In this document: positions 29,485 to 57,889 of the stretch, piece by piece
Position numbering within the stretch: position 1 is the stretch's first letter
Layout: every line of letters starts with the position of its first letter
Assembly (NCBI GenBank): GCA_020852515.1
Contig: JADZAS010000015.1
Location: forward strand, 1 to 64,000
Reading direction: 5' to 3'
DNA: 64,000 nucleotides
From: Phycisphaerales bacterium
Lineage (GTDB): Bacteria > Planctomycetota > Phycisphaerae > Phycisphaerales > UBA5793
Notes under the pieces: model-generated
What the model saw: only the letters and a program-made list of their open reading frames with translations
What the model was told of the DNA's origin: nothing
Databases searched by the model: none
Made by a program: the position numbers and the translations under genes

Positions 29485-30825
29485 TCACCCCACCGGCAGC
29501 ACGCGCTGCAGCCGGCGGACCACCTCGACGATCACCTCGACTGCGCTTTCGATCTCCGCATCCGTCGTCTCCTGGGCGAGGCTGAAGCGGATCGAGCCGT
29601 GTGCCAAGCGCTCTTCGATCCCCATCGCCAGCAGAATCGGCGAAGGATCGAGCGAGCCGCTGCTGCACGCCGCGCCCGCCGAGGCGAACACGCCGCGCTC
29701 GCTCAGGCCGAGCAGGATCGCCTCGGCCTCGAGCCGGTCAAAAGCAATGTTGGTCGTGTTCCACAGCCGCCTGGCCGGGTCCGTCGCACCGTTCACGGCG
29801 CAGCCGGGCACTTCATTAAGGAGTCGCTGCTCGAGCCGGTCGCGCCGCGCCGCAGTCTGCCCGGCCGCGGGATGATCACTCTGCAAGTGCCGCAGCGCCA
29901 GCTCCGCCGCGACTCCCAGGCCGATGATGCCCGGCACATCCTCCGTCCCGCCGCGCCGCTCACGCTCGTGCGGCCCGCCGAGGATCTGCGCCTGCAGTCG
30001 CACGCCCTTGCGAACAAACAACCCGCCGACGCCCTTGGGCCCGTGGAACTTGTGCCCCGCGAAACTCAGCAGATCGACCGGCAGGGCCCGCACATCGCAC
30101 GGCAACTTGCCCACCCACTGCACCGCGTCCGTGTGAAAGAGCGTCTTGCCATCCGCCTCGCGCACCGCACCGAGCAACGCCTCCATCGGCTGGATCACGC
30201 CCGTCTCGTTGTTGGCCCAGATGATCGACACCAGCGCCACGCGCCCGGCGTGTTCCGCCATGGCCGCGGCGAGATCATCCGGCCCGATCAGCCCCTCGCG
30301 TGACACCGGCAGGCGAACGACCGTGAAGCCTTCCTTCTCCAACCGCTCCATCGGCTCGCGCACCGCCGAATGCTCGACGGGCGTGGTGATGATGACATCG
30401 CGCGCGAGGTGGCCCTGCTCCCTCCCCCGGCTCTGCGGGGGAGGGTCGGGGTGGGGGCTGCCTTTGTCATTCCCGCGCAGGCGGGAATCCAGTCTCCCTC
30501 CCCCGGCTCTGTGGGGGAGGGCCGGGGTGGGGGTCTTCTTCCCCTGCTCCCCTGCTCTCCTGCTCACCTGTCTGTATGCCACTCCAAAGATCGCCAGGTT
30601 GCACGACTCGGTCCCGCTGCTCGTAAACACGATCTCGCCCGGCGTTGCGTTGAGCAGCCGCGCAACCGACTCGCGGGCCAGCTCCACTTTTGCCCGCACC
30701 TGCTGGCCGAAGCGATGCACGCTCGACGGATTGGCCCAGTCGCAGCGCATCGCCTCCGCCATGGCCTGCACGACTTCATCGGCCGGCCGCGTCGTTGCGT
30801 TGTGATCGAGGTAGATCGCCCGCAT
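29485..30825 (-). CDS. Cysteine desulfurase (IscS/NifS family) with repeat-encoded insert
   Basis: This 446-residue PLP enzyme converts cysteine to alanine and passes sulfur to Fe-S scaffolds. Family motifs: IYLDHNATTRPADEVV at 4-19, TSSGTESCNLAI at 68-79, TTPVEHSAVREP at 147-158 (His152), ANNETGVIQP at 204-213, HTDAVQW at 231-237, SFAGHKFHGPKG at 254-265 with PLP-binding Lys259, and SAGAACSSG at 382-390 with catalytic Cys387. Residues 94-139 are absent from normal IscS. They are low-complexity Pro/Arg/Gly sequence encoded by intergenic repeats inserted in frame, in the loop before the IITTPVEH strand. All catalytic residues survive, so activity is plausible. Confidence 0.85.
   Translation of the reverse strand: MRAIYLDHNATTRPADEVVQAMAEAMRCDWANPSSVHRFGQQVRAKVELARESVARLLNATPGEIVFTSSGTESCNLAIFGVAYRQVSRRAGEQGKKTPTPALPHRAGGGRLDSRLRGNDKGSPHPDPPPQSRGREQGHLARDVIITTPVEHSAVREPMERLEKEGFTVVRLPVSREGLIGPDDLAAAMAEHAGRVALVSIIWANNETGVIQPMEALLGAVREADGKTLFHTDAVQWVGKLPCDVRALPVDLLSFAGHKFHGPKGVGGLFVRKGVRLQAQILGGPHERERRGGTEDVPGIIGLGVAAELALRHLQSDHPAAGQTAARRDRLEQRLLNEVPGCAVNGATDPARRLWNTTNIAFDRLEAEAILLGLSERGVFASAGAACSSGSLDPSPILLAMGIEERLAHGSIRFSLAQETTDAEIESAVEVIVEVVRRLQRVLPVG
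30419..30533. repeat. Composite repeat block inserted within the cysteine desulfurase gene
   Basis: Two 39-bp copies (30419-30457 and 30495-30533) share a CCCTCCCCCGGCTCTG core and a GTGGGGG end, differing at two positions. Between them at 30469-30488 lies ATTCCCGCGCAGGCGGGAAT, matching the ATTCCC-N8-GGGAAT pattern known from Neisseria dRS3. The block length keeps the reading frame open and has no stop codon in that frame. Confidence 0.75.
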
Positions 30826-31276
30826 GGCGGAGAATCATAGATCGCAGCGCGGCAGCGCCCGCTGGTGCCAATCGCCGTCGCGCACGGCCAGCTTCACGGA
30901 GAATGCATACAGGGCGGCGTGGCGCTTTCGCCCCGGAGGGGCGCCAGTGTGTAGCCACGGGTGGAGCGAGCCGAGGCGCAGCCCGGCGAGTGGAACCCGT
31001 GGTCGGCGGCGCGCAAAGATTTCACCGCCCCGAAGGGGCGGCGGAGGCGTGCGCCCGCTGCACGCACAGGACGAACGAAAGCGCGCGCCTGGACTTCGAC
31101 CGTCTCCATCGCCCCATCCGGGGCGAGTCGAATCGAAGAGCGCCCGCATCCACGGGTTCCGCGATGCAAAGCATCGCTCCACCCGTGGCTACCCTCCTGA
31201 ACCCCTCCGGGGTCAAATCCAACAACTCCGCGCCCGTGCCATAAGCCTGGACTACAGGCGCACCGCCCACTCTGAC
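30826..31276. other. 451-bp intergenic region with large nested palindrome
   Basis: No gene is seen between the cysteine desulfurase start and the truncated secreted-protein gene. Most of it is the nested inverted-repeat structure at 30929-31213. Confidence 0.65.
30929..31213. repeat. Nested inverted repeat structure (about 285 bp)
   Basis: GTAGCCACGGGTGGAGCG at 30951-30968 is perfectly inverted at 31175-31192. Inside, TGGAACCCGTGG at 30991-31002 is mirrored by CCACGGGTTCC at 31150-31160. Four local hairpins occur: CGCCCCGGAGGGGCG (30929), CCGCCCCGAAGGGGCGG (31025), CGCCCCATCCGGGGCG (31108) and ACCCCTCCGGGGT (31201). The structure could fold into a large cruciform or RNA hairpin. Confidence 0.7.
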
Positions 31277-31996: not shown

Positions 31997-32557
31997 ATGA
32001 AGTCCACCGAACTCCGACCCGGCAACGCCGTCCGCATCGACGGCAACATGTACGTCATCACCCAGTTCCAGCACATCACGCCGGGCAACTGGCGCGCCAT
32101 GGTCAACCTCCGCCTCAAGAACGTCCAGACCGGCCTGGTCATGGAAAAGCGCTTCCGCTCCGGCGAAGACATCGAGCAGATCGACCTCGACCGCCGCGAG
32201 ATGGAGTACCTCTACACCGACGCCTCCGGCCACGTCTTCATGGACAACGTCACCTACGACCAGTTCACCTTGTCCGACGAATTCCTCGGCAACGCGATGC
32301 AGTTCATGAAGCCCAACACGACCGCCAACGTTCTCGTGTGCGAAGGCAAGCCGCTGACCATCGAACTGCCCGCGACGGTGGACCTGCTCATCACCGAGAC
32401 CACCCCGGCCATCAAGGGCGCCACCGCGACCAACCAGCTCAAGGAAGCGACCCTCGAAACCGGCCTCAAGACGCGCGTGCCCCCCTTCATCGAAGAAGGC
32501 GAACTCGTGCGCATCAGCACCGCCGACGGCTCCTACCAGAGCCGCGCGAAAGAATAA
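31997..32557 (+). CDS. efp: Translation elongation factor P
   Basis: This 186-residue protein has the three-domain EF-P layout and usual length: domain I MKSTELRPGNAVRIDGNMYV, then MEKRFRSGEDIEQIDLDRRE, EYLYTDASGHVFMDNVTYDQ and the C-terminal GLKTRVPPFIEEGELVRIST. EF-P relieves ribosome stalling at polyproline. At the loop where E. coli has PGKGQAF with modified Lys34, this protein reads PGNWRAM, so Asn31 replaces the modifiable Lys/Arg. A GGGAG ribosome-binding site precedes the ATG. Regulation is not evident; a REP-like element follows the gene. Confidence 0.93.
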   Translation: MKSTELRPGNAVRIDGNMYVITQFQHITPGNWRAMVNLRLKNVQTGLVMEKRFRSGEDIEQIDLDRREMEYLYTDASGHVFMDNVTYDQFTLSDEFLGNAMQFMKPNTTANVLVCEGKPLTIELPATVDLLITETTPAIKGATATNQLKEATLETGLKTRVPPFIEEGELVRISTADGSYQSRAKE

Positions 32558-32579: not shown

Positions 32580-32656
32580 CGTCATTCCTGCGCAGGCAGG
32601 AATCCAGTCGAGCGTGCTGCCAGGTTCGTTGGAGCCTGCCTGCGCAGGCATGACGG
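32580..32656. repeat. REP/dRS3-like inverted element after efp
   Basis: ATTCCTGCGCAGGCAGGAAT at 32584-32603 and the inverted partner CCTGCCTGCGCAGGCATGAC at 32635-32654 form a two-headed element about 75 bp long. Both share the GCGCAGGC core seen at 29423 and 30469. It lies between the convergent efp and lipoprotein genes and may also serve as a terminator. Confidence 0.65.
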
Positions 32657-34497: not shown

Positions 34498-35679
34498 TTA
34501 CGAGCTGGTCGTGCCCAGGGCGCGGATGACCGCGTGGGCGTTTTCGTTGCGCATCTCCAGCGTGTACTCGCCGATCAGCTGGCCGACCTCCGAGTCGCCC
34601 GTGCTGCTCAGCGGTTTGTAGTGGAAACTGCGCCCGCCAAGGGGCATCACCGCCAGACGCGAGCGATCAAGCAGCAGCACCGTGTCCGCCGGCACCCAGC
34701 GGCTGAGGATCACGCGGCACACGCCAAAGTCCGACTCGTACACCGAGACGAACTCGCGCAGCCGATCGTCGTCGGCCGAGTAGCTGCGGTTCGGAAACAG
34801 CATCGAGTTGATGCGCCGCTTCTGGAAGCCGTTGACGACGATCGTGTCGATGGTGCCCGAACTCGACTCCCACGCGATGCGCAGGGCCGCGTTGAGAATC
34901 TCCTCGGTGAGCAGGTCCGAATTCGTGCCTTCGCCCGGCGGGATCTCGCCCACGCCCGGCTGGAAGATGTTCGTGCTCACGCGGCGGATGATGCCATCCA
35001 TCGTGCGCCGCACCGTGCTCGAACCTTCCGGATCGGCAGACGGCGACGTGCCGTTGATGACACAGTTCTCCAGGTCGCGCACGAGTTCGCGCAGGCGCTG
35101 CTGCTTCTGGTAGTCGGCCTCGTCGGCGATGGCGTGCTGCCGCGCCGCCTGCTGCGAGCCTGAGACCTCGACGCTGGCGGTGAAGATCTGCGTGAAGTTG
35201 CGCTGCCGCGTGCGATTGGTAAAGCGGCTGGTGGGCCGGTCGGCGCCTTCGAGGGCCGCGTTGCCCAGGATGTGCAGCACCTGGTTGTCGGCGAGATTCT
35301 CGGCCGTCGTGCCACCGTAGCCGCGCACCACCGTGATCGAGCCGAGGCCCGTGTTCACCGTCGTCACGAGCATGACCTCGCGGCTGCCCTCGACCTGGAT
35401 CTGGTCGCCGACCTTGAAGATGTCTTCATCATCGACGCCGAAGGTCGTATCCGCCATCGGATCGGTGTAGGTCGCGTCATTGATCTGCCCGCGATTGGGC
35501 AGCAGCGTGTCTTCGAGCCACTCGTGAATGGTGCTGACCGCCGGCCGCTGAGCATCGCCGAGATGATCGAGCAGCGGCGTCTCGTAGGGGCTGACAATTC
35601 CGATGATGTCGGCGACGTCTTCGACGAGTTCGGGGAGCGTGGCGCCCGCGCTGTACGTCGCCTTTCCGGTAAATGGCAT
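34498..35679 (-). CDS. Major capsid protein of second phage module (DUF5309)
   Basis: This 393-residue protein has DUF5309/SU10 capsid motifs: LVEDVADIIGIVSPYETPLL with HLGDAQRPAVSTIHEWLEDT, a barrel VEGSREVMLVTTVNTGLGSI with TVVRGYGGTTAENLADNQVL, then RTRQRNFTQIFTASVEVSGS, STVRRTMDGIIRRVSTNIFQ and DTIVVNGFQKRRINSMLFP, ending in VCRVILSRWVPADTVLLLDR. These match the order of motifs in the capsid protein at 7166-8308, though sequence identity is low. No stop or frameshift is present, so the gene appears intact and under selection. Neighbours are a scaffold-like protein upstream and a connector-like protein downstream. Confidence 0.85.
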   Translation of the reverse strand: MPFTGKATYSAGATLPELVEDVADIIGIVSPYETPLLDHLGDAQRPAVSTIHEWLEDTLLPNRGQINDATYTDPMADTTFGVDDEDIFKVGDQIQVEGSREVMLVTTVNTGLGSITVVRGYGGTTAENLADNQVLHILGNAALEGADRPTSRFTNRTRQRNFTQIFTASVEVSGSQQAARQHAIADEADYQKQQRLRELVRDLENCVINGTSPSADPEGSSTVRRTMDGIIRRVSTNIFQPGVGEIPPGEGTNSDLLTEEILNAALRIAWESSSGTIDTIVVNGFQKRRINSMLFPNRSYSADDDRLREFVSVYESDFGVCRVILSRWVPADTVLLLDRSRLAVMPLGGRSFHYKPLSSTGDSEVGQLIGEYTLEMRNENAHAVIRALGTTSS

Positions 35680-57566: not shown

Positions 57567-57889
57567 GGCGCGGCCACCTCCGTGGAGAACACCGACCCGT
57601 CTCGCGATCCCGGAACGGTGGCATCGTATGCACTGCAGAGTAACAGAGGCGACCGCCGTCGGTGGTTGCAGCTCGCCCGTGGCTGAGCGCTCGTTGCGCC
57701 GTGATGGATCGAAGGTCCCTGCCCGCTTGTAGATTCCCGCTTGCGGGGGAATGACGGATTCGGGCGCTGCGGCACGTTCGCACTCAGCAGCGGCCTTCGA
57801 TGCGACTCGGGCCAGGGAGCCGGATGCTGAGTGGCGCCCTTGGTTATGGCGCGAGTGGGACGACATTGCATGTTCGCGGCCGGCGGTGC
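57567..57889. other. 323-bp gap with a dRS3-like element and one of two direct repeats
   Basis: It holds ATTCCCGCTTGCGGGGGAAT (57733-57752) and the first of the two direct repeats that flank the DUF305 gene (57772-57842). No gene is seen. Confidence 0.6.
57733..57752. repeat. dRS3-like palindrome
   Basis: ATTCCC, an 8-base spacer and GGGAAT fit the ATTCCC-N8-GGGAAT pattern, as does the copy inside the cysteine desulfurase gene at 30469-30488. Confidence 0.65.

Follow-up and report, generated by a model that had tools for sequence, protein, structure and literature searches.

A repeat block of 135 bp lies inside the reading frame of a NifS/IscS-type cysteine desulfurase gene in the 64,000 nt of the Phycisphaerales contig analysed here (the window). 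We consider it very probable that a GC-rich palindromic repeat and a REP of the CGTC-1/dRS3 type were inserted in a surface loop of this enzyme, where they are translated as a disordered linker, and that the same process took place in at least 12 gene families of the genus. The locus has the following features:

29485-30825, minus strand: NifS/IscS-type cysteine desulfurase gene with the insert (ORF, NCBIfam, Foldseek)
30409-30543, minus strand: repeat block (135 bp) encoding residues 95-139, which are predicted to be disordered
30418-30457, no strand assigned: GC-rich palindromic repeat, copy 1 (40 bp), with a 9-bp stem CCCTCCCCC/GGGGGAGGG and a GTCGGGGTGGGGG-like tail
30465-30491, plus strand: dRS3/CGTC-1-type REP with TGTC tag, 8-bp stem, 4-nt loop and CCA tail
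30494-30533, no strand assigned: GC-rich palindromic repeat, copy 2 (40 bp), in direct orientation and in another frame than copy 1
30541-30575, minus strand: low-complexity stretch adjoining the block and encoding VSRRAGEQGKK

The two GC-rich repeats are direct, 95% identical and spaced by 76 bp, and the palindrome ATTCCCGC-GCAG-GCGGGAAT (ATTCCCGCGCAGGCGGGAAT, positions 30469-30488) is located between them. The sequence-only reading had already described a block of two GC-rich repeats around a dRS3-like palindrome within the desulfurase; this arrangement holds, but the unit measures 40 bp instead of 39 bp and the block corresponds to residues 95-139 instead of 94-139. At the palindrome, the TGTC tag of CGTC-1 elements precedes ATTCCCGC and overlaps it as T-GTC-ATTCCCGC, and ATTCCCGC-GCAG-GCGGGAAT-CCA contains the CGTC-1 stem (8 bp, starting with AT), the 4-nt loop and the tail. 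Both motifs are present in the window above chance, the observed number being reached in none of 100 shuffles. The draft genome to which the window belongs (G000, 4.72 Mb) harbours 13 sites of the GC-rich repeat and approximately 15-20 of the palindrome, and reversed-pattern controls for both motifs gave no site in it. No Rfam family was found in the repeat block.

The GC-rich copies in the desulfurase are read in different frames, as TPTPALPHRAGGG and SPHPDPPPQSRGRE. The GC-rich unit is free of stops in all six frames, whereas one frame of the dRS3 unit contains a stop; that frame is not used in the desulfurase block. As had been noted beforehand, the frame is open through both repeats and the palindrome, and the ORF is intact. 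This is unsurprising in itself, since five of the six frames are open across the entire block, and the main constraint on the block is a net length divisible by three. The adjoining VSRRAGEQGKK stretch has a similar form in the insert-bearing species and is missing in the insert-free species. Judged from this distribution, it probably belongs to the inserted DNA, so the insertion would be longer than the block.

The desulfurase ORF runs from its start at 30825 to its end at 29485 on the minus strand and encodes 446 aa. It remains below the equivalog cut-offs of the NCBIfam models for NifS (440 vs. 530.75 bits) and IscS (304.9 vs. 643.2 bits), and it is matched as two stretches because the insert splits the match. 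The PLP lysine (Lys259), the stacking histidine (His152) and the catalytic cysteine (Cys387), all recognised in the first inspection, are invariant in an alignment of 36 sequences. In the AlphaFold model based on 36 sequences (pTM 0.86) the core is mostly above 90, while residues 97-136 have pLDDT values below 50 and are placed between helix 71-94 and strand 144-147, in agreement with the loop position that had been proposed. Foldseek comparison of the model with E. coli IscS, M. tuberculosis IscS and human NFS1 gave target-normalised TM-scores of approximately 0.90-0.96. The core is thus predicted to be intact and the insert to be disordered.

Comparison with relatives, as the sequence-only reading had advised, revealed that the insert is absent in G001, a member of the same genus, and in distant homologs. 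In four of the five species the loop comprises 39-97 residues; in the fifth it is short. It contains two GC-rich copies and the dRS3 unit in G000, four GC-rich copies and the dRS3 unit in G004, two GC-rich copies in G002 and one in G003; the G001 loop has no GC-rich copy and reads FGVVRRHPHRTTVITTPVEH. The desulfurase tree puts G001 outside the other species of the genus, whereas the UvrA tree nests this insert-free species beside G000 and G004, implying a loss or parallel gains. All five gene lengths are multiples of three, without internal stop. Among 96 homologs the median loop length is 13 residues, and outside the insert-bearing species and one further homolog (L096) no loop is longer than 20 (a long value listed for L140 was produced by the search expression and is not real). 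In solved structures this position is taken up by 8 residues, compared with approximately 60 in the G000 desulfurase. A non-repeat insert conserved across desulfurases, the finding that would have spoken against an insertion, is thereby ruled out.

Two further extensions were seen in desulfurases. The loop of L096, from the MAG Dive96_bin4.162, has 31 residues; it is extended by another palindrome-like sequence, GGACCGGCTTCCAGCCGGTGC, which is translated as GTGFQPVRP and is probably an independent insertion at the same loop. The desulfurases of G002 (L051) and G003 (L069) carry a second in-frame insertion of approximately 50-60 residues near the position of G000 residues 315-319. The inserted DNA is bounded by inverted sequences of the type TTCACCACAGAGGGCACAG...CTCTGTGCCCTCTGTGGTGA and probably represents another repeat family in another loop.

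Copies were located by pattern search in 81 genomes of the order and their surroundings were read stretch by stretch. All five genomes of the genus carry the GC-rich repeat, at 6 to 33 sites each, and the other genus of the family has it at one site; none was detected in the 75 genomes from the remaining families of the order. Thus, it is essentially genus-restricted. In-gene copies were called by scoring codon usage on either side of the site and by a Pfam scan of the ORFs. By these measures 30 of the 88 GC-rich sites are in frame within family-supported genes, which belong to 12 families: the desulfurase (four species), Mfd and an SBBP propeller protein (three species each), CTP synthase, UvrA and a UDPGP pyrophosphorylase (two species each), and, in one species each, Iso_dh (isocitrate/isopropylmalate dehydrogenase), a MurD-like Mur ligase, squalene-hopene cyclase, a short-chain dehydrogenase (SDR), an LVIVD propeller and a DUF7133 protein. 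The desulfurase, CTP synthase, Iso_dh, UvrA and MurD cases are better supported than those of Mfd, SBBP, LVIVD, DUF7133 and UDPGP, in which the site falls outside the best-scoring domain stretches, either between two of them or past the last one.

Clean empty sites at the same position in sister species were found for the three families that were checked:

UvrA: filled in G004, VSVQHKSED-[insert]-TWSDQLYSEHF; empty in G000, VSTQQGAEGTDTWLDQLYSEHF
Iso_dh: filled in G004, AKDYQNI-[insert]-WEANIDAICM; empty in G000, AKDYPGIAAWEANIDAICM
CTP synthase: filled in G004, AMTG-[insert]-GGPADVV; empty in G001, AMTGCDGGPADVV

The UvrA loop is filled in G003 and G004, and the sister of each is without insert, so either parallel insertion or repeated loss has taken place. 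If random insertion and a coding density of approximately 88% (an assumed value) are taken as a basis, the share of one third of survivors in genes corresponds, as a rough estimate, to the survival of about one coding insertion in fifteen to twenty, with intergenic insertions as the reference.

Of the six possible frames, five are represented among the 30 in-gene copies, two of them within the desulfurase, and the peptides differ between the units of one gene. The use of five frames argues against a conserved peptide function. The commonest frame per gene family is Gly/Ser-rich (TPSSGSAGEGRGGG), an observation made after the fact, and selection may favour flexible, hydrophilic linkers.

Most likely we are dealing with a selfish or passive repeat which is free of stops in all frames and survives in tolerant surface loops. 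According to this explanation, the genus-specific, multi-copy GC-rich repeat entered, together with the CGTC-1/dRS3-type REP, the loop connecting helix 71-94 to strand 144-147, the strand ahead of the PLP-stacking histidine. Insertions would pass selection if their net length is divisible by three and the loop tolerates a change in length; in-frame insertions would survive because the GC-rich repeat has no stop in six frames. Afterwards, the copy number in the block would change by whole codons, and the same course of events is proposed for the at least 12 gene families. It is tempting to go further and to see in the repeat a general element that introduces disordered linkers into core enzymes irrespective of frame, with linker selection (the TPSSGSAGEGRGGG frame being retained more) shaping the survivors and with recurrent insertion possible at some sites, such as the UvrA loop in two lineages. 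This extended proposal is tentative and we rate it as rather doubtful.

The desulfurases of G000 and G004 were compared at the codon level. Outside the insert dN/dS is approximately 0.08-0.11, while the insert shows one synonymous and five nonsynonymous changes (Fisher p=0.007). Strong purifying selection thus acts on the desulfurase sequence around the insert, but the insert peptide is not constrained in this way. The inserts differ at 6 of 126 bases (4.8%), compared with a synonymous divergence of 0.26-0.47 in the flanks. The low divergence suggests homogenisation by gene conversion between copies, turnover younger than the species split, or constraint at the DNA level, and we make no choice among the three.

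A rival explanation is an insert with a selected function, be it that mRNA hairpins slow translation, that the linker mediates an interaction or that a G-rich quadruplex tunes transcription. The insert is kept in four species with fewer base changes than flanking synonymous sites, the mRNA of the block forms strong hairpins (z -2.8), both GC-rich copies contain a four-tract G-quadruplex-like motif, and most of the gene families carrying the repeat use the same Gly/Ser-rich frame. However, the peptides vary with the five frames and between units of one gene, the copy number ranges from one to four, G001 does without the insert, and within the insert dN does not fall below dS. We therefore regard a selected function as unlikely.

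The repeat could also be tolerated because the desulfurase is a dispensable, decaying duplicate whose activity has become unimportant. The search for a second iscS/sufS gene, suggested at the outset, was successful: the G000 genome also carries a canonical IscS (contig C25), which exceeds an NCBIfam IscS cut-off, and a third gene for a cysteine-desulfurase-family protein (contig C11). Because of these two genes, the insert-bearing desulfurase is not proven to be essential, as the first reading had called it. Nevertheless, the low dN/dS in the flanks, the invariant catalytic residues, the intact ORF in five species and the GC-rich repeats in CTP synthase, MurD and further conserved genes are at odds with decay, and a desulfurase match is present in all 61 genomes searched, although some matches correspond to the IscS paralog. 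The gene is not decaying, and the probability that we assign to this explanation is very small. Between the two possibilities that had been offered, a duplicate that has lost importance was thus abandoned, and a tolerated surface loop was retained: the insert is disordered in the model, the core is intact, relatives lack the insert and no peptide is conserved. Presumably the enzyme has full activity. The NifS-like gene of the sister genus (G005 C1:1108584-1109776) reads as three pieces with overlapping ends, which suggests frameshifts or sequencing errors.

It is highly improbable that the block is missing from the protein due to removal from the mRNA or ribosome bypass, for which the strong hairpins could be cited, since all supported in-gene copies are in frame and free of stops, neither of which bypass would need, and the stop-containing frame of the dRS3 unit is not used in the block. 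Hardly any weight is given to an assembly artefact: the genomes are drafts in tens to hundreds of contigs, mostly MAGs, and multi-copy repeats are their most misassembly-prone part, but four separately assembled species show the insertion, each time in this loop, between these flanks and in frame.

As a class, CGTC-1 elements are characterised by a predominance of head-to-head dimers and by the lack of a dedicated transposase. Genes for RAYT-type transposases (PF01797) exist in all six genomes of the two genera. Units resembling dRS3 flank one RAYT gene on both sides in the related genus (G005) and are located near one each in G000 and G004; they are absent near most RAYT genes examined. Spread of the dRS3 unit by RAYT is plausible. 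For the GC-rich unit no associated transposase was found: none of 12 RAYT loci had a copy within approximately 1.5 kb. Neither a GTAG nor a CGTC tag is present next to its stem. The idea that the GC-rich repeat is a RAYT terminal repeat was rejected, as the two RAYT genes read closely are flanked by another inverted repeat, CGCCCCGGAGGGGCG...GTAGCCACGGGTGGAGCGA. Just upstream of the desulfurase, at 30926-31217, an inverted repeat with 44-nt arms (82%) resembles such RAYT flanks and is without transposase.

The only dRS3-like copies in G000 that we judged to be true repeats within genes are the one in the desulfurase and one in BacA/UppP. The latter (L027:1059-1973, contig C13 near 526645) is in frame and located approximately 700 bp from a RAYT gene. 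Another candidate (L035, two mismatches) passed the coding filter, yet looks like a chance match.

Palindromic repeats within genes are already known. Rickettsia palindromic elements (RPEs) form in-frame fusions with a conserved peptide (PMC10969869). Like them, the repeats described here are dispersed palindromic elements, found in frame in unrelated conserved genes and presumed to be compatible with folding and function (PMC10969869). In contrast to the RPEs, which have approximately 150 bp and are described with a conserved peptide, the GC-rich units have approximately 40 bp and are read in five of six frames, and their host belongs to a different phylum. Intragenic REPs were also reported; their targets include uvrA, uvrB and further repair genes, and loops and linkers were suggested as neutral sites (Di Nocera et al. 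2013, PMC3733652). The authors equate the CGTC-1 elements of Neisseria with dRS3 and list Planctomycetes among the REP carriers; the parts consulted make no mention of this planctomycete genus and gene set. Similarly to these GTAG/CGTC REPs, repair genes are hit (here UvrA and Mfd) and the central palindrome fits CGTC-1, with the ATTCCC(N8)GGGAAT core of Neisseria dRS3; the two GC-rich repeats, which make up most of the insert, differ in carrying neither tag. Neisseria dRS3 is found mostly in large intergenic clusters (PMC3733652), whereas here the unit occurs singly or alongside GC-rich copies, and within genes as well. The initial statement that such repeats are normally intergenic is thus only partly correct, since intragenic REPs and the Rickettsia elements are published and about one third of the GC-rich copies in the genus are in frame within genes. 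The GC-rich family is new, untagged and without conserved peptide; a limited literature search yielded no paper on it in Planctomycetota.

In-frame mobile palindromes in core genes, best known from Rickettsia, are now found in a planctomycete genus with genomes of 4.3-4.8 Mb. Its filled and empty orthologs (approximately 85-95% identity) are paired natural experiments on the tolerance of enzymes to disordered inserts and on selfish DNA becoming protein. Furthermore, when PTPALPRRAGGG- and LDSRLRGNDK-like peptides appear in predicted proteins, annotation error is not always the cause.

The window contains two further dRS3-like palindromes, at 57732-57753 and at 32583-32604, the latter just past the stop of an EF-P-like gene (31997-32557). 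At 34498-35679, on the minus strand, it encodes an SU10-type major capsid protein (Pfam PF17236, E 1.7e-84), and phage or prophage genes are therefore located approximately 4 kb from the desulfurase.
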